42,839 nucleotides of DNA from Rickettsiales bacterium. GTDB lineage: Bacteria; Pseudomonadota; Alphaproteobacteria; Rickettsiales; SXRF01. Each line of letters begins with the position of its first letter. Positions within the stretch are counted from its first letter, which is position 1. The DNA is taken from positions 1 to 42,839 of the forward strand of contig JAJTHB010000003.1 of assembly GCA_021299465.1 (NCBI GenBank), given 5' to 3'. The position numbers were made by a program, and so were the translations under genes. The notes beneath the pieces were generated by a model. The model saw only the letters and a list, made by a program, of their open reading frames with translations. It made no database searches and was not told the DNA's origin. Of this stretch, positions 3,893 to 15,716 are shown piece after piece.

Positions 3893-5503
3893 TTAAGGTA
3901 AGGGTGGGTTATTGCCGGATCTTCCCCCTGGACCTGCGTTACGAATTGTTTCGATTGGCGGTGCCGCGCCAGCGCGTTCAAGAAGTCTCTTTACCCCTGT
4001 TGGCAATATGACAATCTCTGGCGGCTCTTTTGCTTCGGCCTGCGTTGATGTGGTTTTATGTTTATCCAGCGCCTTTACAATCCATTCCTGAATCACCTTC
4101 AAACTATCAGCAGGATCCTGACCATGCACGGCGTTGATAATAAATGGATGACTTGCTAAATGAATGATTCTGTGGCCTTGCAGGCTTGGCAACCGTACCG
4201 CGCGATCTGCAAACTCTGCCTCCATGTCGAAATGACGACTCTCGACCGTATGATCAATACCAAATTTCTTATCCTCGCCTTTTTTGGGATCTAATAGCGT
4301 GATTTCTGGCAATGATCTGTTCTTAAGTTCACCGTTGACGTCTTTGAGCACAGCATTGATGGTCGCGATCTGCCGACGAAGCTCTGCAACATCATGCGAT
4401 AAAAACTCAGAGGAAATTCTGAAGTAACGAGACTTATTTTCATCGCGCTTATCGTCACCATAACTCTTAATGCGCCAAACCTGTTCGTTTGGCTCAAGTG
4501 CATTAGTATTAAACATGTAGTCATGGCTTTTTTCAATTGGATCAGGCTCGGCATTTGGCAGCCCATCCTTTACATCGCGCATTTGCTGCTTGGTCATTAC
4601 ATTAAGAAAATAGTCCTGCGAGATAGGATGCTCAGGATCCGGGCTGGAGACAATGAATTGTCCATCATCATGAACCAAGCTGAATAAATCTGTATAAAAA
4701 TCCTGAGCTTGTTTGAGGCCCGAACTTTTACTGTAATAGTCTGTGCTCAAGTATGGATCCATGAAATCCATCATCGATGAAATATACATGGCCCCAACAC
4801 GAAGCTTTCTTTCGTCAAGCCAGCCCCTCAATTGATTCACGCGATCCCTATCACGAAGGTCAAAATTGAATAGCTGTATTTTGCCTGCTTTTGCTAACTC
4901 GCGAATCGCCGTGTAATTTTTCTTAGATAACCAACTCAGCTCACCCGCATTACCTGGCGTTTTTTCCAAATAGGTTTCCAATTCAACTTTCGTCTGAGGC
5001 TGATATTTCTTTTTATTCGCGCCGAATACGTTGAAATATTCCTTATATTCATCGCTCGTTTTACTTATGCCTAATTTTTTCTCTGGGCGTTCCTGATACC
5101 TCATGTAAAGGGGTACAAATCGTTCTTTGAATAACTCTGGCGTTGGGCAGCCTTTGATCAAGTTGATAACTTCTTGCATCGCTGAGATCTGCCCCTGGTT
5201 CACATCATAGAGAATGATTTGCTGAAAAGAGTGGCCTTTACCAAGGCCCGCTATCGAAACGATATCAAGACTTTTGAGGCCCGCTACACCCAGATAAACT
5301 TCATCATCTGCAATTCGTCGCGACCTGAGTTTGTTTTCAACATCCGATAGTTTCGATTTATCGAGCTCATTTTCTTTTCTGCTTTTGACGGACTCATTAA
5401 TCAGAAAAGGTTTTCGAAATACGAAGAAAGGATTGCCGGCAATGTAATGGCTTCCCAGCTCACCAGAGATCCTGTTGGTAGAATGCGGATTCCTAGAACT
5501 CAT
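3893..5503 (-). CDS. Uncharacterised 536-aa protein, possible methyltransferase-like core
   Basis: I do not recognise a named family. Residues ~60-110 (VYLGVAGLKSLDIVSIAG then IILYDVNQGQ) look like the first strand-loop and the acidic second strand of a Rossmann-type SAM-binding fold, and a later VGAMYISSMMDFMD segment could be the matching strand 4. The rest is hydrophilic and Lys/Asp rich, with a Pro-rich C-terminus (GRSGNNPPLP). There is no signal peptide or membrane segment. The gene is more AT-rich than its neighbours and has no operon partner, which suggests transfer or fast evolution. A secreted effector is possible but the sequence does not show it. The ATG at 5503 has AGGG just upstream. 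Confidence 0.6.
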   Translation of the reverse strand: MSSRNPHSTNRISGELGSHYIAGNPFFVFRKPFLINESVKSRKENELDKSKLSDVENKLRSRRIADDEVYLGVAGLKSLDIVSIAGLGKGHSFQQIILYDVNQGQISAMQEVINLIKGCPTPELFKERFVPLYMRYQERPEKKLGISKTSDEYKEYFNVFGANKKKYQPQTKVELETYLEKTPGNAGELSWLSKKNYTAIRELAKAGKIQLFNFDLRDRDRVNQLRGWLDERKLRVGAMYISSMMDFMDPYLSTDYYSKSSGLKQAQDFYTDLFSLVHDDGQFIVSSPDPEHPISQDYFLNVMTKQQMRDVKDGLPNAEPDPIEKSHDYMFNTNALEPNEQVWRIKSYGDDKRDENKSRYFRISSEFLSHDVAELRRQIATINAVLKDVNGELKNRSLPEITLLDPKKGEDKKFGIDHTVESRHFDMEAEFADRAVRLPSLQGHRIIHLASHPFIINAVHGQDPADSLKVIQEWIVKALDKHKTTSTQAEAKEPPEIVILPTGVKRLLERAGAAPPIETIRNAGPGGRSGNNPPLP

Positions 5504-5890
5504 GCCCTGCCATGAAATTAATTTTGATTAATTTATAGCACAATATGGTAAAGTTAAGGTTTATAGTTCCGTGACAATTGAAGTGCTTAATGTTTATTAA
5601 TTTATATTAAGATGACATTTTTATGACAGCCGCAATCACATGAATCATCGTTTTAATTATTTTAAACAATGGATTAGCCGATTTATGGCCAGAATCCCAA
5701 ATATAGGCAATCATATACCAATCGAGCGGATATAACACAGACTCAAAAAATTTGTCACATGAGATCGAAACAGCAACGGTTAGTGGCAGGGGTGGGATTC
5801 GCTTGCTAGACATGATGCAGATGCGGTACCGCCCCATCAAAAGCGATGATTTTGAGCAAAACACTTTTCATTGATTCTTGATCGGCCAGT
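5504..5890. other. AT-rich intergenic stretch without a convincing gene
   Basis: Between the 536-aa gene and the disrupted reading frame at 5891-6103. It contains one 85-codon open frame on the minus strand (5607-5864) that lacks a recognisable domain and a ribosome-binding site. I see no repeat, RNA gene or clear terminator. Confidence 0.4.
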
Positions 5891-6103
5891 TCACAAAGCG
5901 TTTAATTTCTTACGAACGTCTTGCCTCACGGCTGCGACGAGTGAATCGCCGGAGGTAACATCCATATAATTATTACGAACCCGTAGTCCCAAATGGATTG
6001 CAAAGACAGGTTTGAAATCTCAACCCTGCATAACGTGATGTTCAATCCAGCTAAGCTTAGCGGCACTGCCGTGACTATTCTGATAGTGTCGTGACGTTAT
6101 CAT
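5891..6103 (-). pseudogene. Remnant of a small protein gene with an in-frame TGA
   Basis: On the minus strand an ATG at 6103 opens a frame of 70 codons that reads well except for one TGA at 6020-6022. Before it: SWIEHHVMQG; after it: DFKPVFAIHLGLRVRNNY and onward to SGDSLVAAVRQDVRKKLNAL. The amphipathic, protein-like composition on both sides of the stop argues for a decayed gene and not for random frame. I do not recognise the family. The ECF sigma gene begins on the opposite strand 85 bp away, so the frame lies where that gene's promoter should be. Confidence 0.4.
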
Positions 6104-6188
6104 CCTTAACGCCTTGTCGTTTACATGCAATACTCTACAATGAACGTTCGGTAGGGGTACACATTAGAAAAACGTGGGGCCATTTGGC

Positions 6189-6731
6189 ATGGTTGCATCT
6201 GAAAATAAATATGCGGAAATCAGCGCTTTGATGCTTGCCGGTCTTGACGGAGATCAGGCAGCGTATGGTAAGTTCCTAAGCACGATCGCACCGATGCTTC
6301 GCCGGATGGTAAGCAGGAAACTTTCGCAGCCCGATGTTGAAGACGTAGTGCAAGAGATATTGATTTCAATCCATAAAGCCCGTCATACCTATGATGGCAA
6401 GCGCCCGATCATGCCTTGGCTGTATTCTATCGCGACTTTCCGCATCACCGACCATTTACGCAAGCATTATTCGCAAATGCGTCACCAGAGCGTTGATATC
6501 GCCGATTTTGAAAATATTTTATCGGATGTAACCGAAGAAGCATCGAACCACGAATCCATAGAAGAACTACTAGAAAACGTTCCTGAAAAGCATAAACGAA
6601 TTCTGACTCTGATGCATGTGGAAGGTTATACGGCCAAAGAAGTGGGTAAGAAAATGGGGATGAATGAATCTGCCGTGAAAGTGGCAGCGCATCGAGCGAT
6701 CAAAAAAATTAGAGGAAAATTTGGAACATGA
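6189..6731 (+). CDS. sigF: ECF sigma factor, SigF type
   Basis: A 180-aa extracytoplasmic-function sigma factor. Region 2 spans roughly residues 25-95 (DVEDVVQEILISIHKARHTYD, PWLYSIATFRITDHLR) and region 4 residues ~125-175 (EKHKRILTLMHVEGYTAKEV, MNESAVKVAAHRAIKKIR). In Caulobacter the SigF-NrsF pair controls metal and oxidant response genes, including a bufferin operon; here the same kinds of gene lie immediately downstream, so the role is inferred to be the same. The start is ambiguous: the ATG at 6189 follows a GTGGGG about 9 bp upstream, and a GTG at 6174 would add five residues. The stop overlaps the anti-sigma start by ATGA, so the two are translationally coupled. Confidence 0.9.
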   Translation: MVASENKYAEISALMLAGLDGDQAAYGKFLSTIAPMLRRMVSRKLSQPDVEDVVQEILISIHKARHTYDGKRPIMPWLYSIATFRITDHLRKHYSQMRHQSVDIADFENILSDVTEEASNHESIEELLENVPEKHKRILTLMHVEGYTAKEVGKKMGMNESAVKVAAHRAIKKIRGKFGT

Positions 6732-7378
6732 GTAATACTGCTGATTTAATTGCGAGTTTGAGTGCTGAAGCAAAATCAACCAGCAAAGTCAGAGCACCCT
6801 CTTATTGGTCTATCCGTTTGCTGGCTGTCCTTACAATATACGCCATCGGTTGCCAGTTGTTTCTTGGACTGAGAGCCGATTTGCCCTTACAGCTTGTGCG
6901 CCCGTTATTTGCGCTGGAAACATTATTGCTGACCTTGTTATTACTCACCAGTGCCATTGCCGCCACGCTGGCGATGTATCCCGATGTCTACCAAAGACCA
7001 GGATTTCTGAAGCTGCCCTATATCGTTTTTGCGTTACTGGCGATGCTGATGTGCTTTCAGTTATGGATGCCTATCGATAGTCGCATGGTCATACCTGATG
7101 GCCCTGACGTGCATACCATTGAATGTGCCCTTTGTATTGCATCAGCCGCACTCATCCCTTCGGCGCTTATGTTTGTTTTACTGCGCAAAGGCGCAAGCAT
7201 ACGGCAACTTCAAGCAGGATCATTCGCCGTGCTAACGGCAACGGCTATCGGCTGTTTGACGCTTAGATTGTCTGAAGAAAATGATTCCATCATGCATTTG
7301 CTGCAATGGCATTATCTACCAACCCTGCTCTTCGCCGCGCTGGGCGCATTGGCGGGTAAATGGCTGTTAAAGTGGTAG
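6728..7378 (+). CDS. nrsF: NrsF-type anti-sigma factor (DUF1109), six membrane helices
   Basis: A 216-aa integral membrane protein with about six hydrophobic segments (from SIRLLAVLTIYAIGC near residue 30 to the last helix near 210), matching the DUF1109/NrsF family that holds the SigF-type sigma at the inner membrane. Family members sense through a pair of cysteines between helices; here cysteines occur in TIECALCIASA (C136 and C139 region), which would be the candidate sensor pair. It is coupled to the sigma gene by a 4-bp ATGA overlap. Release of the sigma would turn on the downstream operon. The family assignment rests on topology, length and context. Confidence 0.85.
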   Translation: MSNTADLIASLSAEAKSTSKVRAPSYWSIRLLAVLTIYAIGCQLFLGLRADLPLQLVRPLFALETLLLTLLLLTSAIAATLAMYPDVYQRPGFLKLPYIVFALLAMLMCFQLWMPIDSRMVIPDGPDVHTIECALCIASAALIPSALMFVLLRKGASIRQLQAGSFAVLTATAIGCLTLRLSEENDSIMHLLQWHYLPTLLFAALGALAGKWLLKW

Positions 7379-7495: not shown

Positions 7496-8092
7496 TTACC
7501 TGCTATGCGCAGCAATTATCAGCTCTGCTGTTTTCTTGCCTTGTTTGGCCGCATCTTTTAATCCACCAACAAACCATGTGGTGTATGCACCGGCGATACA
7601 TCCGGCTATTTGTTCTGCAACGGCACGCGGCTTGACCAGATTTGCATCACGGGCGAATTGCTCCAAATGATCTGTTAAGAAGTTATAATGATTTTCACAC
7701 ACCCGCCGAACAGGGCTATCACGATCCGTATATTCACTGGCGGCGTTAATGAATGGACAGCCATAGCAATCCGGCTCTTTAAAAAAAAGATGCATTTCAT
7801 CGAAAAGGATCGTTAATCGGTCTGTCGGCGATAATCCCTTCCTGTTCCATGCCTTGGTATAATTGCTGCGATGAAGCTCGCTTAAATATTGCAGTGTTTC
7901 TTCGATCAGCTCATCTTTGTTTTGGAAATGGTGGTAAAGCGTGGCCTTAGTTATATCCACTGCTTTTGAAATAGCCTCGACACCTGTGGCTTTGTAGCCA
8001 TGCTTGTAGAAAACCTTTGCGGCTGTGTCGAGTATTCGGTTTTTTGTATTCTTTGACTTGGGCATAGCTCGTTTATTTTTAGCTTCTAACAT
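7496..8092 (-). CDS. TetR/AcrR-family repressor
   Basis: A 198-aa regulator. The N-terminal helix-turn-helix (residues ~20-65: RILDTAAKVFYKHGYKATGV, ITKATLYHHFQNKDELIE) is classic TetR. The ligand domain carries the GCPFINAASEY stretch, with C-Y-G-C just ahead of it, a possible thiol or metal switch. It is divergent from the peptide gene at 8289, and the shared 196-bp region contains half-sites ACCGA/TCGGT overlapping a TATAAT box, so repression of that operon is a reasonable inference. The ATG at 8092 has GGAA upstream; an in-frame ATG at 8065 is an alternative start. The ligand is unknown. Confidence 0.9.
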   Translation of the reverse strand: MLEAKNKRAMPKSKNTKNRILDTAAKVFYKHGYKATGVEAISKAVDITKATLYHHFQNKDELIEETLQYLSELHRSNYTKAWNRKGLSPTDRLTILFDEMHLFFKEPDCYGCPFINAASEYTDRDSPVRRVCENHYNFLTDHLEQFARDANLVKPRAVAEQIAGCIAGAYTTWFVGGLKDAAKQGKKTAELIIAAHSR

Positions 8093-8211: not shown

Positions 8212-8240
8212 AACCGAATGGTCGGTATAATTATTCGGTT
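8212..8240. promoter_or_regulatory. Operator with ACCGA/TCGGT half-sites over a TATAAT box
   Basis: AACCGAAT (8212-8219) and ATTCGGTT (8233-8240) form a perfect 8-bp inverted repeat with 13 bp between. Within it ACCGA-N4-TCGGT (8213-8226) is a second, tighter palindrome that abuts TATAAT (8226-8231). The overlap of symmetry and -10 box in the region shared with a divergent tetR gene points to a TetR operator. Confidence 0.6.
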
Positions 8241-8288: not shown

Positions 8289-8591
8289 ATGTCTATCAAT
8301 AAAACTCTTGCTACCGCTGCTCTCGCAGGCCTCTTAAGCTCTGCTTTTACGCTCACTGCTTTCGCTGCAGAAGATAAAGCTCCAGCAGCATCTAAAACCG
8401 AAGCTGCAAAAGAAAAAAGCGCTTGCAGCGGCAAAGAAGGCTGCGGCAGCAAAGATGGTAAAGAAAAGCACTCCTGCAACGGCAAAGAGAGCTGCGGCAG
8501 TAAGGATGGTAAAGAAAAAAGCTCGTGCAGTGGAAAAGAAGGCTGTGGCAGCAAAGATGGCGCTGAAGGCAGCAAAAAAGAGGCAAAATAA
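8289..8591 (+). CDS. bufA: Secreted Cys-repeat precursor peptide (bufferin/oxazolin-like)
   Basis: A 100-aa protein with a Sec signal peptide (hydrophobic residues 7-25, cleavage expected after AFA at about 26). The mature part carries three near-identical 17-residue repeats with cysteines at 46/52, 63/69 and 80/86, each of form C-x-G-K-E-x-C-G-S-K-D-G. Peptides of this kind are substrates of MNIO (DUF692) enzymes, which convert cysteines to thiooxazole-type heterocycles and give copper-binding bufferins. The downstream gene encodes such an enzyme, which supports the call. A strong AAGGAGG lies 8 bp upstream of the ATG. Its spacing of Cys differs from the EGKCG motif I recall for related peptides, so the exact subfamily is uncertain. 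Confidence 0.82.
   Translation: MSINKTLATAALAGLLSSAFTLTAFAAEDKAPAASKTEAAKEKSACSGKEGCGSKDGKEKHSCNGKESCGSKDGKEKSSCSGKEGCGSKDGAEGSKKEAK
8424..8574 (+). repeat. Three 51-bp tandem repeats within the precursor gene
   Basis: Three in-frame units of 51 bp encode the 17-residue Cys repeats. The units differ mostly at synonymous sites, which suggests selection on the protein and not very recent duplication. Confidence 0.75.
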
Positions 8592-8619
8592 GCTCCTGCT
8601 GATTGTCTAATCAGGGAAG

Positions 8620-8648
8620 CGGGGGCTGGTGACAGCCCCCGTCTTTTC
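8620..8648 (+). terminator. Intercistronic hairpin between peptide and enzyme genes
   Basis: A 9-bp GC-rich stem (8620-8628 pairing with 8633-8641) with a GTGA loop, followed by TCTTTTC. It lies 29 bp after the peptide stop and 13 bp before the enzyme ATG. The short, interrupted T-run suggests a partial terminator or 3' stabiliser that keeps peptide mRNA in excess over enzyme mRNA. Confidence 0.65.
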
Positions 8649-8661
8649 TTGGAACCCTGTT

Positions 8662-10344
8662 ATGAAAAACGTATCCGATTTTTTCCCGAATCTTGGTTTT
8701 GGCCTTGGGCTTCGTCCTAAGCATTATCAGTATATTTTTGAGCATCAGCCAGATATCGATTGGTTCGAAATCATCTCGGAAAACTTCATGGATACCGGCG
8801 GCAGGCCGCGACGCAATCTCGATAAAGTACGCGCTAATTACCCCATTGTGATGCATGGAGTGGCGATGTCGATTGGTACGGTTGATCCGCTCAATTCCGA
8901 ATATCTTATCAAGCTGAAAAAGCTAGCGGATGAGATTGAACCCGCCTGGATTTCTGATCATTTATGCTGGACAGGCGTTGCCCATAAAAACAGCCATGAC
9001 TTGCTGCCTGTACCCTACACAAAAGAAGCGCTGAAACACATCGTTTCGCGCATTCAACAGGTGCAGGATTTTCTGGGGCGGCCTATTGCACTGGAAAACC
9101 CCTCCACTTATCTCGAGTTCAAAACCTCCTGTATTCCAGAGAATGAATTCATCGCGGAAATGGCACGTGAATCTGGCTGCCATCTGCTGCTTGACGTTAA
9201 TAACATCTATGTCACCTGCTACAATCACCGGCTTGATGCGAAAGCCTATATCGACGCACTGCCATTAGACAAAGTCGTTCAGATTCATCTTTCCGGTCAC
9301 AGCAACAAGGGGACGCATATCATCGATACGCATGACGATCATGTGGTGGATGGCGTATGGCAGCTGTATAAATATGTAGTGCATAAAGGCGGTCGCACGC
9401 CCAACACCATGGTCGAATGGGATGATAATATCCCGCAATTTGATGTGCTCTATGCAGAATTAAGCAAAGCAAAATTAGCCGCTAAAGATGCAAAAAATTA
9501 TGCCACGCTGCCAGATCTGGCTAAGCAGGAAGCACCGTATGTGGCGAACCTGCAAACCCCGCTTGCTGATTCACAAACCTTGATGCAAGAAGCTATTTTA
9601 AAGGGCGCAAAGCTTGATTCCAGCCCAGATGCATGGATCCGCGCCAAAGAAAAATTTGCACCGAAAGACCAGCTTGCAGTCTATGTGAATGCTTACCGGT
9701 TTCGTTTATATGATGTGACGGCAGAAGATTATCCAGTGCTCAAGCATGCTTTAGGCGATGATAATTTTGATAAACTGATCAAAGATTTTGTTAATGCCAC
9801 CCATTCCGGCCATTTTAATGTTGCCCGCTATGCCGCGCATTTGCCAGATTTTTTGTCGAACCATGAATTAGCTAGTGATTTTGCTGTGGCATTAGCAACG
9901 TTCGAAAATGCGATTGTACAGCTAAGCGACCCAAAAGAAACCACGCCGCTTACGCCAGAACACCTGGCAGGAGTGACGCCGGAAATGTTGATGAAAAAAA
10001 TGCTTTATCCGCGGAAAGCCTTGCAGCTTTTTGCGTTTGATTATCCGATCAATCGCTATTATCGCGAAGTGAAAGACGAAAGATCCCCCACCCTACCCGC
10101 AAATGAAAAAAGTTTTGTGGTTGTATTTCGTCATGAGGATGTCGTCTGGCGCATGGATCTGGAAGCGATGGAACATATTTTGCTCAGCGATTTGTTTGCA
10201 GGAAAAACCATCGGTGAAGCACTTGGCGGCCTTGATGAATCCGCCGCTACAAAACTTTCTGAATATTTCTCACGCTGGATTAGTAACGGAATGCTAGCAC
10301 ATTACGAACACGTGGATGAACAATCACGAAGGATCGTCGCATGA
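8662..10344 (+). CDS. Fused MNIO (DUF692) peptide-modifying oxidase and DUF2063 partner protein
   Basis: A 560-aa polypeptide joining two proteins that are normally separate (BufB/HvfB and BufC/HvfC). Residues ~1-275 are the DUF692 TIM barrel, a multinuclear non-heme iron oxidase: metal-ligand candidates are H65 (VMHGV), H100 (SDHL), the Glu of ALENPS, the Asp of LLDVNN, the His of IHLSGH, DTHDD and the Glu of MVEWD. After a linker near 280-300, DUF2063 begins (LMQEAILKGA, DQLAVYVNAYRFRLYDV, YPVLKHALGDDNF) and continues to a second domain at the C-terminus. DUF2063 partners help recognise the precursor. The ATG at 8662 follows a GGAA at 8651; a GTG at 8629 lies in the hairpin loop and is rejected. 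The next gene overlaps by ATGA. Confidence 0.9.
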   Translation: MKNVSDFFPNLGFGLGLRPKHYQYIFEHQPDIDWFEIISENFMDTGGRPRRNLDKVRANYPIVMHGVAMSIGTVDPLNSEYLIKLKKLADEIEPAWISDHLCWTGVAHKNSHDLLPVPYTKEALKHIVSRIQQVQDFLGRPIALENPSTYLEFKTSCIPENEFIAEMARESGCHLLLDVNNIYVTCYNHRLDAKAYIDALPLDKVVQIHLSGHSNKGTHIIDTHDDHVVDGVWQLYKYVVHKGGRTPNTMVEWDDNIPQFDVLYAELSKAKLAAKDAKNYATLPDLAKQEAPYVANLQTPLADSQTLMQEAILKGAKLDSSPDAWIRAKEKFAPKDQLAVYVNAYRFRLYDVTAEDYPVLKHALGDDNFDKLIKDFVNATHSGHFNVARYAAHLPDFLSNHELASDFAVALATFENAIVQLSDPKETTPLTPEHLAGVTPEMLMKKMLYPRKALQLFAFDYPINRYYREVKDERSPTLPANEKSFVVVFRHEDVVWRMDLEAMEHILLSDLFAGKTIGEALGGLDESAATKLSEYFSRWISNGMLAHYEHVDEQSRRIVA

Positions 10345-10790
10345 AAATCATTCAGTTTCTGATCAGCTGGCCCGAGCGCGTTGCGTCAAATTTCCTATGG
10401 GCAGGACCGCTGATTGCCCGCATCACAGTTGGCTACGTGTTCATGCTTAGCGGCTGGGCCAAGTTGCAGAATCTTGATCGTGTCACCGATTTTTTTTCTA
10501 GCCTTGGCATTCCATTTCCTGAAATCATGACACCGCTTGTTTCTGGCATTGAGTTTACAGGCGGCCTGTTCCTGATCGTAGGCATTCTGACTAGGATCAG
10601 CAGTGGGGCACTGGCCGTTACCATGATTGTCGCTATCATTTCAGCCAAATGGGAAGAAGTCGATTCGCTACATACACTACTCGCCTTCGAAGAGACCCTG
10701 TTCCTTGCTATCTTCACCTGGCTTGCCATCTGCGGCGCTGGTAAGGCATCGCTGGATTATTTGATAAGTCCGCAATTACGAAAAATATAA
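10341..10790 (+). CDS. DoxX-family membrane protein
   Basis: A 149-aa inner-membrane protein with four hydrophobic helices and the DoxX hallmarks: RITVGYVFMLSGWAKLQN early and SGIEFTGGLFLIVGILTR in the middle. DoxX proteins are recurrent members of bufferin and MNIO operons (there called BufD), where their exact redox or quinone-linked role is not settled. It is translationally coupled to the fusion enzyme (ATGA overlap at 10341-10344) and closes the operon. No clear terminator follows. Confidence 0.9.
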   Translation: MKIIQFLISWPERVASNFLWAGPLIARITVGYVFMLSGWAKLQNLDRVTDFFSSLGIPFPEIMTPLVSGIEFTGGLFLIVGILTRISSGALAVTMIVAIISAKWEEVDSLHTLLAFEETLFLAIFTWLAICGAGKASLDYLISPQLRKI

Positions 10791-12478: not shown

Positions 12479-12778
12479 ATGATGAAGCTGCCCCAAGAGA
12501 TTATACAAGAAATTGCCGCCCGCGCGAAAGCGCGGAGGCTTGCGCTTGATTTGACGCAAGAAGGCTTGGCCTCTCGCTCAGGTGTGCCACTCAGCACATT
12601 GAAGCAATTCGAGCATACCGGCAAAACTTCTCTCGAGTCACTGCTTGCAATCTCACTCGCGCTAGGCACCAGCCATGAGTTTGATGGGCTATTCGCCACC
12701 GCGCAATCAAGTGCGGGTCTATCGCTTGATGAGCTGATGAAAGCACCGAAGCAACGTAAGCGCGGGAGTGTTAAATGA
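12479..12778 (+). CDS. hipB: HipB-like XRE-family antitoxin
   Basis: A 99-aa DNA-binding protein with a helix-turn-helix at about residues 20-60 (LALDLTQEGLASRSGVPLSTLKQFEHTGKTSLESLLAIS). It pairs with HipA, neutralises it and represses the operon. The coding end overlaps hipA by ATGA. Two overlapping ATG codons (12479 and 12482) are possible starts; neither has a Shine-Dalgarno, which fits the near-leaderless promoter just upstream. The C-terminal tail is basic (KQRKRGSVK). Confidence 0.9.
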   Translation: MMKLPQEIIQEIAARAKARRLALDLTQEGLASRSGVPLSTLKQFEHTGKTSLESLLAISLALGTSHEFDGLFATAQSSAGLSLDELMKAPKQRKRGSVK

Positions 12779-14022
12779 CGTATCAGCCTGTATCTCTCGT
12801 GCATGTCAGTCTCAACTTTGGCAGTGTTACTCACAAAGTGGGAAGGCTCGCGCTGGTAAAGCGTAAGATTTATTTTGAGTATGATCCCACATTCATAAAA
12901 TCCGGCCTGGATATTTCTCCGCTTAAGCTACCCAAACAGACCGATGCAATCCCCTGTGATGATGCGGTGTTCGAGGGATTGTTCGGCGTGTTCAATGATA
13001 GCCTTCCCGATGGCTGGGGACGTTTGTTGCTAGATCGACAGGTGCGTAAACATGGTATCGCGCCTGAACAGCTCACCCCGCTGGATCGGCTGACGCATGT
13101 GGGCAGCTTTGGTATGGGGGCACTCACCTACGAGCCGGACACTAGCGAGCATTCGCACAACGCCGATGCCATTAGCCTCGACAAGCTGGCCGCCGAATCT
13201 TCTGATGTGTTGGGGGGCGAAGTTCTGGAAGGCGAGGCAGGTGATGTTTTCGCAGAGCTGCTGGGGCTCTCTGGTTCATCCGCCGGTGCGCGTCCCAAGG
13301 TGATGCTCGGCGTAAGTGCAAACAAGAAAAACCTGATTCACGGTCAGCAGGAATTGCCTAAAGGATATGCACATTGGATGGTGAAGTTTTCCTCTTCCTC
13401 GGACGCTAAAGACATCGGCGCGATTGAGTATGCCTATAGCCTGATGGCGCGTGCGGCGGGGCTGGAGATGATGCCGACGTACTTATTTCCCGCCAAAAAA
13501 GGCGCGGGCTATTTCGGCGTCGAGCGCTTTGATCGCGTTCACGACAAGCGGCTGCATATGCACACCGTGTCCGGTCTTCTGCATGCCGATCACCGTTTAC
13601 CCTCACTCGATTACGAGCAGATCATACGGGCAACTCTGGCATTGACGCGTAATGTGCAGGAGGTAGAAAAAATACTGCGGCTCGCGGCGTTTAACATATT
13701 CGCCCATAACCGTGACGATCACGCGAAGAATTTCAGCTTCCTTATGGACGATAAAGGCAGCTGGAATGTTTCCCCAGCCTACGATCTGACCTTCTCAGGT
13801 GGTCCAGGCGGCGAACATAGCACCACCGTCATGGGTGAAGGCAAGCGCCCAGGCAAAGAACATTTGCTGATGCTTGCAACAAAAATAGGGATCGCAAAAC
13901 CGCTTGCAAACTCGATCATTGATGAAGTGAAAGACGCCGTGCAGCAGTGGCCAATCCATGCCGAAGAAGCTGGTGTCACCAAGGCATCAAAGAAAATCAT
14001 CGCCGACGTGATTACCAACTAA
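12775..14022 (+). CDS. hipA: HipA serine/threonine kinase toxin
   Basis: A 415-aa HipA-family kinase. The N-terminal subdomain is present (VGRLALV, FNDSLPDGWGRLLLDR). The ATP-binding SSAGARPK loop lies near residues 168-175, the catalytic N312-R-D314-D-H316-A-K-N motif follows, and the metal-binding Asp is in PAYDLTFS. E. coli HipA phosphorylates glutamyl-tRNA synthetase and causes growth arrest; related toxins hit other tRNA synthetases, so the target here is not certain. All catalytic residues are intact, so the toxin is expected to be active. It is translationally coupled to hipB. Confidence 0.93.
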   Translation: MTYQPVSLVHVSLNFGSVTHKVGRLALVKRKIYFEYDPTFIKSGLDISPLKLPKQTDAIPCDDAVFEGLFGVFNDSLPDGWGRLLLDRQVRKHGIAPEQLTPLDRLTHVGSFGMGALTYEPDTSEHSHNADAISLDKLAAESSDVLGGEVLEGEAGDVFAELLGLSGSSAGARPKVMLGVSANKKNLIHGQQELPKGYAHWMVKFSSSSDAKDIGAIEYAYSLMARAAGLEMMPTYLFPAKKGAGYFGVERFDRVHDKRLHMHTVSGLLHADHRLPSLDYEQIIRATLALTRNVQEVEKILRLAAFNIFAHNRDDHAKNFSFLMDDKGSWNVSPAYDLTFSGGPGGEHSTTVMGEGKRPGKEHLLMLATKIGIAKPLANSIIDEVKDAVQQWPIHAEEAGVTKASKKIIADVITN

Positions 14023-14101: not shown

Positions 14102-15121
14102 TTAGCTGTTGATCAGTTTTTCCAAGTCAGCAATGCCCTGCATCATCGTCTCAAAGTCGGGAGCCTGCTGGATAAACATTGCCGCCATCTCGACATAGTC
14201 TTTCTTCAAATCTTCCATTGCTTCAGGCTTTGGCATTAACCTCAGTTGCCCAATAACGGCAGTATCGTATGAGGCTTTATTGTCAGAGAACATCAGGCTT
14301 TTGTTTCTAACCACTTGTTCCAGTAACGCCACGTCTGGCATCGCTCTGTCTGCAATGCCTTTTTGTGCCAGGATGTAGGTGTCATAGTAATGGCGGGACA
14401 TGCGTTCGCGCATTTTCTTCCCATGATGTAGCGCATGCAGAATGGTGACTTTTTCCCAGAAGGTACGATCCGCTGTCAGCACATGCACCGAGCTATTCGG
14501 TTCATCAAAAAGCTGCGGGAACAATTCAGCGACATAAGATGCTATGTGCTTATTCTCGCTTGGCTCGATGTCACCTCGTGCGCCGAACTCCAACCGTATG
14601 ATTGGTTGTACATAGCCACCCATTCCAGTGCCCATGCCGTAACTCATTAGCTTGGGATAGGTAAACAGAATGGTCTGGTTATCGGGATCCTTTGTATCAA
14701 GTTCCAGTTTCCAGCCATCCGGTAGTTTTGAGGCGATGGATTGGTGTAGTATCGGCAGAGCCAGTTCCACAACAAACCGGCGGGCATTGTCTTTCAACGC
14801 GTCAATCCTGCGCTGACGCTCCTTGCCGGATACGCCATCCTCCATTGCATCCTTGCCGTCTGCCAAATAAGGCGCATCCTTGCTGATGGTAAGGTCAATA
14901 TCCTCGGAGAAACGGTCAATCAGGCGATAGGCTTTTGACAGTGATGTGCCACCCTTAAAGGTAATATGTGGTGCGAGCTGTGGATTCTCGAAAATCTGCT
15001 TCAGTGTCCAACATACCCAAAAATCTTTCTCCACAATGGCCGACGCAATCGAATGTCGAGTGCCCGTTTCATCAAACGCTTCGATTTTATCCGCATCCGG
15101 CAGTGTGAAGAATTTATCCAT
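14102..15121 (-). CDS. abiEii: AbiEii-type nucleotidyltransferase toxin
   Basis: A 339-aa protein of the AbiEii/DUF1814 nucleotidyltransferase family, the toxin of a type IV (AbiE) toxin-antitoxin and phage abortive infection system. The polymerase-beta-like signature is clear: FKGGTSLSKAY near residues 57-67, then FSEDIDLTIS with two metal-binding Asp, and an EKDFWVCWTLKQ helix before it. A later EKVTILHALHHGK helix is also typical. Family members add nucleotides to tRNA or use GTP. It overlaps the end of the antitoxin gene by 8 bp, so translation is coupled. Confidence 0.92.
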   Translation of the reverse strand: MDKFFTLPDADKIEAFDETGTRHSIASAIVEKDFWVCWTLKQIFENPQLAPHITFKGGTSLSKAYRLIDRFSEDIDLTISKDAPYLADGKDAMEDGVSGKERQRRIDALKDNARRFVVELALPILHQSIASKLPDGWKLELDTKDPDNQTILFTYPKLMSYGMGTGMGGYVQPIIRLEFGARGDIEPSENKHIASYVAELFPQLFDEPNSSVHVLTADRTFWEKVTILHALHHGKKMRERMSRHYYDTYILAQKGIADRAMPDVALLEQVVRNKSLMFSDNKASYDTAVIGQLRLMPKPEAMEDLKKDYVEMAAMFIQQAPDFETMMQGIADLEKLINS

Positions 15122-15716
15122 GCTTTACGTTCTCTATCTTATGAATCGCATCCGCCATCCAGCTAGGGATACGATCCATCGCTTGATGCAATGCGCCTAA
15201 ATCCTTGTCCGTCAGCATGTCTGCACAACGACTGATGATCTGGTCGTCCACGCTTTTCCTGCCAAGGTAAGAAAGCGCTTGCAGCGTCAGATTAGCATGG
15301 TCAGGCATATTGTCGAGCCATGCTACGCGTGTACGTTTCAACTGAATATTTTGCCCCGCCACGCGCCGTGTGCGATCCGTTGCATTCGTATTATAGGCCA
15401 GCTTGATTGGCACTTGCGTGGAAAGACGCATAAGATTTGCCGCCATTGCACCAGAGGGGAAAACCTTGTCGCCAGCTGCGAGTGCGCGCGCGATATTATC
15501 TGGCGTAGGTGAAAGCGTGCCCAGCAATTTGCTTTGCTTTGGATAATGATAAATGCCGCGATCAAGCCTACGAACCATGCCCTGCTTCACGAGCCGAGAC
15601 AGCACCTGATCAACCGCAGCACGCGAACCAACGTCGAGAAAGTCTTTGGGCGTAAACACCCAACCTGGCTTCCTGCGTTTGATTCGGCTGATTATCTGGT
15701 CGCTTATGGACTTCAT
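15114..15716 (-). CDS. abiEi: AbiEi-type antitoxin / transcriptional regulator (DUF6088-like)
   Basis: A 200-aa protein with an N-terminal winged helix (residues ~1-60: WVFTPKDFLDVGSRAAVDQVLSRL, GMVRRLDRGIYHYPK) and a C-terminal antitoxin domain. In AbiE systems this protein binds inverted repeats in its own promoter and represses the pair, without binding the toxin directly. An exact inverted repeat lies 14 bp upstream of its start, matching that behaviour. The start has GAGG a few bases before the ATG. It precedes and overlaps the toxin gene. Confidence 0.88.
   Translation of the reverse strand: MKSISDQIISRIKRRKPGWVFTPKDFLDVGSRAAVDQVLSRLVKQGMVRRLDRGIYHYPKQSKLLGTLSPTPDNIARALAAGDKVFPSGAMAANLMRLSTQVPIKLAYNTNATDRTRRVAGQNIQLKRTRVAWLDNMPDHANLTLQALSYLGRKSVDDQIISRCADMLTDKDLGALHQAMDRIPSWMADAIHKIENVKHG

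Follow-up and report, generated by a model that had tools for sequence, protein, structure and literature searches.

A one-chain MNIO-DUF2063-RRE protein as the probable maturase of a bufferin-type operon in Rickettsiales and other bacteria

The window analyzed here, a 42,839-nucleotide stretch of DNA from a Rickettsiales bacterium, carries a gene that we believe, with a probability of roughly 0.8, to encode a self-contained bufferin maturase, in which BufB (the MNIO enzyme) and BufC (its DUF2063-plus-RRE partner) make up a single chain. Alignments and predicted models support the view that both halves are complete and that the iron-site residues are kept. The gene belongs to a clade of one-chain proteins that extends into Methylophilaceae. 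This architecture was noted once before, in 2009, and its clade and biology are apparently undescribed.

Domain organization and predicted fold

The maturase frame translates into 560 amino acids without a stop (Table 1). A GTG at 8629 is an alternative start that would give 571 amino acids; the ATG at 8662 is favored because the GTG would lie within the hairpin at 8619 to 8642. A sequence-only reading of this DNA had described an MNIO enzyme fused to its DUF2063 partner in one 560-residue polypeptide, and the domain matches, alignment, and fold models agree on this. The domains occur in the predicted order, DUF692 and then DUF2063, with PF05114 (MbnB_TglH_ChrH, formerly DUF692) scoring 356 bits against a curated cutoff of 25 and PF09836 (DUF2063) scoring 54.7 bits against a cutoff of 27.2; the latter match, expected beyond residue 300, begins at residue 305. 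The NCBIfam equivalog for the bufferin maturase BufB (NF050167) matches the N-terminal part with 370 bits, exceeding its cutoff of 310, and the HvfC equivalog (NF050145) matches residues 334 to 527 with 48 bits, below its cutoff of 142. The partner half, DUF2063 plus RRE, spans about residues 305 to 548. PME1 proteins are encoded by a separate gene after the MNIO gene; at the window locus both halves lie in one frame, and so the partner is a PME1 domain rather than a PME1 protein. The gene is present in a single copy in its genome (1.95 Mb, 98.6% complete).

An AlphaFold2 model of the whole chain, built from 30 one-chain sequences, has a pLDDT of 89 and a pTM of 0.87. By VIA-align, its N-terminal half matches TglH (8hi7_B; Z, 28.4) and 3bww (Z, 25.8), and its residues 338 to 550 match NGO1945 (3dee; Z, 15.1). 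Two alignments, of 20 and of 30 one-chain proteins, show no variation at residues H65, H100, E145, D178, N181, H209, H213, D222, H224, and E252. The sequence-only reading had held that all metal-ligand positions are visible. For H65, H100, E145, D178, H209, H213, and E252, the invariance stands, and they are taken to be iron-site residues. The claim is borne out more directly for N181, D222, and H224, which are equated through the 3bww alignment (with HvfB itself outside that alignment) to HvfB N175, D242, and H244, residues whose replacement is reported to abolish activity (PMC13419390).

Table 1. Features of the window locus and the evidence for each.
Feature	Coordinates	Strand	Basis
ECF sigma factor	6174..6731	+	profile match
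NrsF anti-sigma factor	6728..7378	+	PF06532, E 2e-30
TetR-family regulator, divergent from precursor gene	7496..8092	-	profile match
Sigma-F-type promoter box GTAACT-N16-CGAA	8109..8134	+	Caulobacter consensus
Putative precursor, 100 aa, 6 Cys spaced 5-10-5-10-5	8289..8591	+	directly upstream of maturase
Three tandem 51-nt units inside precursor gene	8409..8560	+	repeat analysis
Terminator-like hairpin between precursor and maturase genes	8619..8642	+	10 pairs, 8 G-C, then CTTTTCTTGG
One-chain MNIO-DUF2063-RRE maturase (bufBC), 560 aa	8662..10344	+	single uninterrupted frame
MNIO (DUF692) domain, residues 13-272	8698..9477	+	PF05114, E 1.2e-106; fold
Linker, about residues 273-304	9478..9573	+	between two Pfam matches
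DUF2063 domain, residues 305-398	9574..9855	+	PF09836, E 1.3e-14
RRE-like domain, about residues 446-548	9997..10305	+	fold of C-terminal half
DoxX/HvfX-like membrane protein	10341..10790	+	PF07681, E 1.1e-22; start overlaps maturase stop by 4 nt

The operon

The window locus is a bufferin-type operon comprising sigma and anti-sigma factor genes, a promoter box, a Cys-repeat precursor, a hairpin, the fused maturase, and a DoxX-like protein, the last of which scores 76.3 bits against the HvfX family, under the cutoff of 80. Among 33 fused loci scanned for relatives of these neighbors (L078 and L080 were left out), a sigma factor was found at 10, NrsF at 7, and DoxX at 17, some of the flanks being short.

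The Caulobacter sigma-F box is GTAACC-N16-CGAA (PMC3511200). A strict pattern, GTAAC[CT]-N16-CGAA, occurs within 800 nt upstream of the gene at 14 of the 33 fused loci, against 0.04 expected from shuffles, although the match at L055 is oddly placed; the strict box is absent from all 7 Methylophilaceae loci. A looser pattern matches the window four times, where 0.72 matches are expected, and two of the four fall inside genes. The hairpin stands directly before the fused gene at 19 of the 33 loci, against 0.05 expected, and occupies the same place in relatives. Its fold in the window has a z of −2.9; terminator-like sites in the region number 6, against 6.0 expected in shuffles. Across nine aligned gaps, double changes affect 5 of the 12 pairs, and the covariation term is about nil. 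Neither element can serve as a mark of fusion, since split relatives also have the hairpin (8 of 18) and the sigma-F box (10 of 18); the hairpin therefore belongs to the operon type and not to the fusion. Its purpose is likely to be a precursor-rich transcript.

Other features surround the operon. A palindrome, ACCGAATGGTCGGT, lies at 8213 to 8226 in the gap shared by the TetR-family gene and the precursor gene, and it is a possible operator that would add a second layer of control. After the operon come two toxin-antitoxin-like pairs, HTH plus HipA (12479 to 14022) and DUF6088/AbiEi-like plus AbiEii (14102 to 15716). On the minus strand, 3893 to 5503 encodes a 536-residue protein with a DUF7790 match and otherwise no assignment.

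The precursor and the type of substrate

By eye, the start of the window precursor resembles a signal peptide. Profile searches gave it no family match, the single match obtained at E values up to 5 being unrelated (11.7 bits); this includes the profiles for BufA1 (DUF2282, PF10048) and, at E values up to 5, BufA2 (NF050166, cutoff of 60). The peptide is therefore a putative substrate by its position and Cys spacing. Many relatives have precursors with a C-x5-C-x10-C-x5-C core, often within CKG motifs, and in the L052 precursor the motif block is present twice. The C-x5-C relatives tried against the BufA2 profile score 18 to 56 bits, all below the cutoff; such weak matches are not specific, because three DUF2282 precursors score 20 to 32 bits against the same profile.

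In the concatenated tree described below, the ingroup has 54 rows, and the precursor type could be scored for 40 of them. DUF2282 (Buf1)-type precursors accompany 15 split rows and 2 fused rows (L006 and L041), with Pfam confirming DUF2282 at L006, L041, and L082 and a sequence motif providing the label for the remaining split rows; C-x5-C-type precursors accompany 23 fused rows. Outside these scored rows, Pfam also confirms DUF2282 at L004 (second precursor gene) and L150. The unscored rows are L004, which has both types, and 13 in which neither type was found, among them L005, L058, and L073, which have other Cys-rich candidates. On this tree the precursor type needs to change only once, near the fusion. 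As an association, this fits the earlier suggestion that fusion may alter how the precursor is recognized. A general tie between fusion and C-x5-C precursors fails, given that L150, L006, and L041 are fused and have DUF2282 precursors; at L150 the precursor lies directly upstream. L121, for its part, is accompanied by a BufA2-like precursor of its own (55.9 bits against the cutoff of 60).

Two further arrangements were observed. At L004 (3244 to 3838), one DUF2282 precursor gene and one CKGK-type precursor gene precede a single one-chain maturase; this locus, which branches early in the fused clade, is possibly an intermediate of the substrate switch. Also, L070, L073, and L077, which belong to one subclade of alphaproteobacterial MAGs, have an adjacent precursor candidate with 9 to 12 Cys residues in dense runs, many as C-x5-C, whose frame overlaps the assumed maturase start.

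The substrates raise the question of whether the same enzyme performs other chemistry, modifying C-x5-C peptides differently from the 5-thiooxazole formed by related pairs. The window precursor is unlike every family profile tried, and DUF2282 precursors are in the minority among the scored substrates of the clade. We nevertheless consider other chemistry unlikely, considering that the enzyme half scores above the BufB cutoff and that 5-thiooxazole is the product of the MNIO-PME1 pairs covered in PMC13097082.

The junction

The sequence-only reading named a frameshift or an assembly error as what would undo it. A check for either found none: 19 further one-chain open reading frames align with the window protein across the junction. 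Moreover, for six pairs of relatives (eight were tried, of which two were saturated), dN/dS over the 44-residue junction stretch came to 0.05, 0.07, 0.21, 0.34, 0.23, and 0.32, compared with 0.05 to 0.06 for the enzyme and 0.11 to 0.19 for the partner; these ratios are rough because synonymous distances are 0.8 to 1.8. As judged from these substitution patterns, the junction is under purifying selection, and the fusion is maintained in the clade.

One chain might nevertheless be made and two pieces do the work, through cleavage of the linker or an internal start of the partner half. The linker differs in length and sequence across the alignment of 20 one-chain proteins, the gap between the MNIO and partner domain models being 33 to 50 residues (median, 38) in the 35 fused proteins, and by eye the partner half begins with a Met in 13 of 20 rows. 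Yet that Met is missing from the other 7, the junction ratios are 0.05 to 0.34, and the chain is modeled confidently as a whole (pTM, 0.87), so that separate working pieces seem quite improbable.

The partner half

The C-terminal half was also folded alone, because the enzyme domain took all rows but one in the fold list for the whole model. This second model, built from 30 rows of which 4 were split partners, matches the two-domain protein NGO1945 (3dee; Z, 15.0; 3.7 Å; 191 residues) and TglI (8hi7_A; Z, 13.2; 227 residues). Its last approximately 100 residues match leader-bound RRE domains, e.g., TbiB1 (5v1u_A; Z, 7.9; 77 residues), a match that is borderline taken alone. Given the fold matches of both halves, the chain is best described as enzyme plus DUF2063 plus RRE, the RRE domain being an addition to the two-part description in the sequence-only reading.

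PF09836 bears the title "Putative DNA-binding domain," and the NGO1945 paper proposes transcriptional regulation (PMC2954202), which might suggest a DNA-binding regulator in the C-terminal half and, in the whole protein, a metal-sensing autoregulator. Later work, by contrast, presents PME1 proteins as dedicated MNIO partners (PMC13097082 and PMC12452194), and the resemblance of the half to TglI and leader-bound RREs makes a regulator very hard to credit.

Occurrence

How often the fusion occurs, and in which clades, had been posed as a check, and the surveys run here place the one-chain form in a minority of genomes with a match. Matches occur in 85 of the 343 genomes of the window's order, and at least 16 of the 85 contain an intact one-chain open reading frame, the window included (L001 to L006 and L032 to L041). 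For the class sample, 148 of 385 genomes match and at least 5 of the 148 are verified as fused (the window, G442, G352, G647, and G701); for the phylum sample, the figures are 146 of 398 and at least 2 of 146 (the window and G989). These fused counts are lower bounds based on checking the best or long-frame rows; the window is counted in every sample, and the three samples share some genomes. In the window's family, 2 of the 13 genomes with a match have an intact fusion.

Scanning contigs with the C-terminal half of each of 14 one-chain proteins gave 155 stretches and 108 relatives, of which 80 were kept. Thirty of the 80 kept loci are one-chain (L052 to L078, L080, L128, and L121), and all of these but L121 fall in the main group, 14 of the 29 being the same genes as in the genome surveys. 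The main group holds 35 distinct one-chain proteins, not counting L121 and L031. Seven one-chain loci are from Methylophilaceae (L059, L060, L061, L063, L064, L068, and L071), including those of the cultured Methylophilus methylotrophus DSM 46235 (L060, with the gene at 4251 to 5900) and of Methylophilus aquaticus VKM B-3159 (L068). A plasmid search gave 355 records; among the 25 listed, no match exceeds 60% identity, and the matched stretch carries two separately annotated genes in 24 and no annotation in 1.

An artifact in which a sequencing or assembly frameshift merges genes that are separate in the organism does occur elsewhere: in the joint frame at L031 (G008:C16), the last part of the MNIO enzyme before the junction is read out of frame. 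In addition, 9 of the 17 split pairs close to the clade share a 4-nt overlap, and a small shift could join such genes. For the main clade this explanation is negligible, since the same architecture recurs in 35 distinct proteins from many assemblies, including isolate genomes, the MNIO C terminus is conserved and in frame, and the junction is under purifying selection.

L031 (4743 to 6341) is the second MNIO locus of genome G008; another frame holds the expected enzyme tail and stop, and the joint 532-residue frame is thus a decoy for automated fusion counts. Other long-frame candidates were split on checking (G327, G304:C45, G202, G377, G370, G506, G635, G612, G556, G953, G1017, G729, and G986). 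The candidate frames of G799 and G1030 each have a stop inside, G315:C105, a long frame suspected of being a fusion, gave no domain match, and G989 (L150) proved to be fused.

History of the fusion

The MNIO tree was built from 127 loci with a usable MNIO domain, which left 109 rows after 18 identical ones were removed. The fused label requires three changes on this tree and four on the partner tree. In the MNIO tree a single branch, weakly supported (78/64), separates the main 35 rows from all others; in the partner tree the long-branched split row L020 joins them, and the 35 rows as a group are not rejected (p-AU, 0.41). In a concatenated tree of 63 rows, from which L121 was excluded, the 35 fused rows group together (87/87) around a 31-row core (100/99), adjoined by L020 (90/61) and then by 17 split rows, mostly of the same order, and the frameshifted L031. 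The Methylophilaceae form one nested clade within the fused group (100/99).

These trees are compatible with, but do not prove, a history in which a split bufB-bufC pair fused once and the fused gene then spread sideways. The 4-nt overlap of so many split pairs would have been an easy starting point. Because L020, which is split, joins or adjoins the main fused rows, later fission may also have occurred. The closest fused relative of the window protein, G328 (75%), comes from another family, and this, together with the nesting of Methylophilaceae, suggests horizontal spread.

A common origin for all fusions is unsupported, as L121 and L031 lie outside the main clade in both domain trees. Two in-frame fusions beyond the main clade, L121 and L150, look separate; L150, which is outside all trees, has 627 residues with Pfam matches at 16 to 285 and 370 to 461. 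Two observations concern individual rows. The MNIO domain of L008, from the window's family, is identical to that of L082. Also, L066, on a contig titled Rickettsia typhi, adjoins the Rickettsiales MAG L065, near Methylophilus in the trees, and the title may be a mislabel.

Relation to known systems

The window operon shares both domains, a Cys-rich precursor, DoxX, and the sigma/NrsF pair with the BufB1-BufC1 and BufB2-BufC2 (MNIO plus PME1) systems, but BufB and BufC are two genes there and one chain here. MovX and ChrH, two other MNIO enzymes, have other substrates and chemistry. MovX has a fused C-terminal RRE and ChrH another extra domain, and both are described as exceptions to the PME partner rule (PMC13419390). 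Sigma/NrsF genes are reported in Buf1 and not Buf2 clusters (PMC12452194), whereas in the window they stand beside a non-DUF2282 precursor; an ancestry in Buf1 would explain this. The order of the parts, MNIO first and partner second, is that of HvfB-HvfC and of the engineered HvfBC chain (PMC13419390). HvfBC is linkerless and acts on an oxazolin precursor, as reported in the same source, whereas the natural form has a gap of 33 to 50 residues and a C-x5-C precursor.

A DUF692-DUF2063 protein with the same architecture, DUF692 being N-terminal, was mentioned in 2009 as 1 of 216 DUF2063 proteins then known; in the portions of that paper available to us, the mention is in passing, with no name, clade, operon, or substrate (PMC2954202). 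The available portions of PMC12452194, PMC13419390, PMC12710340, PMC13097082, PMC12538549, PMC13174530, PMC12141560, PMC11002830, PMC8692599, and PMC8719888 contain no description of a natural MNIO-DUF2063 fusion. The open-licence literature yielded no experiment on any natural fusion and no paper on DUF692 in Methylophilus.

Proposed function and significance

Work on HvfB and HvfC provides a rationale for the linkage. HvfC is required, binds HvfB weakly, and is needed for the mixed-valent Fe(II)/Fe(III) state; joining the two in an engineered HvfB-HvfC chain raises activity markedly over that of the coexpressed pair (PMC13419390, a 2026 preprint). That a fusion fixes the stoichiometry at 1:1, as had been pointed out from the sequence, follows from the single chain; the same preprint gives this as the aim of engineering HvfBC. 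For the self-contained BufB-BufC maturase, then, the tethered partner would dock on the enzyme, guide the exported Cys-repeat precursor, whose gene lies immediately upstream, and allow the iron centre to attain the mixed-valent state in which it is active, one-chain linkage removing the weak-binding step known for HvfB and HvfC. Precursor Cys residues would be converted to 5-thiooxazoles, and the modified peptide, like the bufferins, which undergo Sec export and bind copper (PMC12452194), would leave by Sec and bind copper in the periplasm. The sigma-F/NrsF switch may activate the operon in response to metal stress. The hairpin downstream of the precursor gene would lower the enzyme-to-precursor ratio.

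A broader reading, which we offer tentatively and regard as somewhat doubtful, is that fusion let a sigma-F-controlled Buf1 maturase change clients, with DUF2282 dropped for short, expandable C-x5-C repeats and the old promoter often kept, before the fused gene spread among alphaproteobacterial families and into Methylophilaceae. If this is true, the clade of fused proteins would serve as a natural experiment in substrate swapping by RRE-guided maturases.

The weak binding between HvfB and its partner in vitro hampers study of the partner's effect on the iron centre. A natural fusion in culturable Methylophilus would offer a 1:1 complex tuned by evolution for structures and spectroscopy. Also, with precursor type switching just once near the fusion, the clade may provide a defined system for studying the role of the RRE partner in substrate choice.
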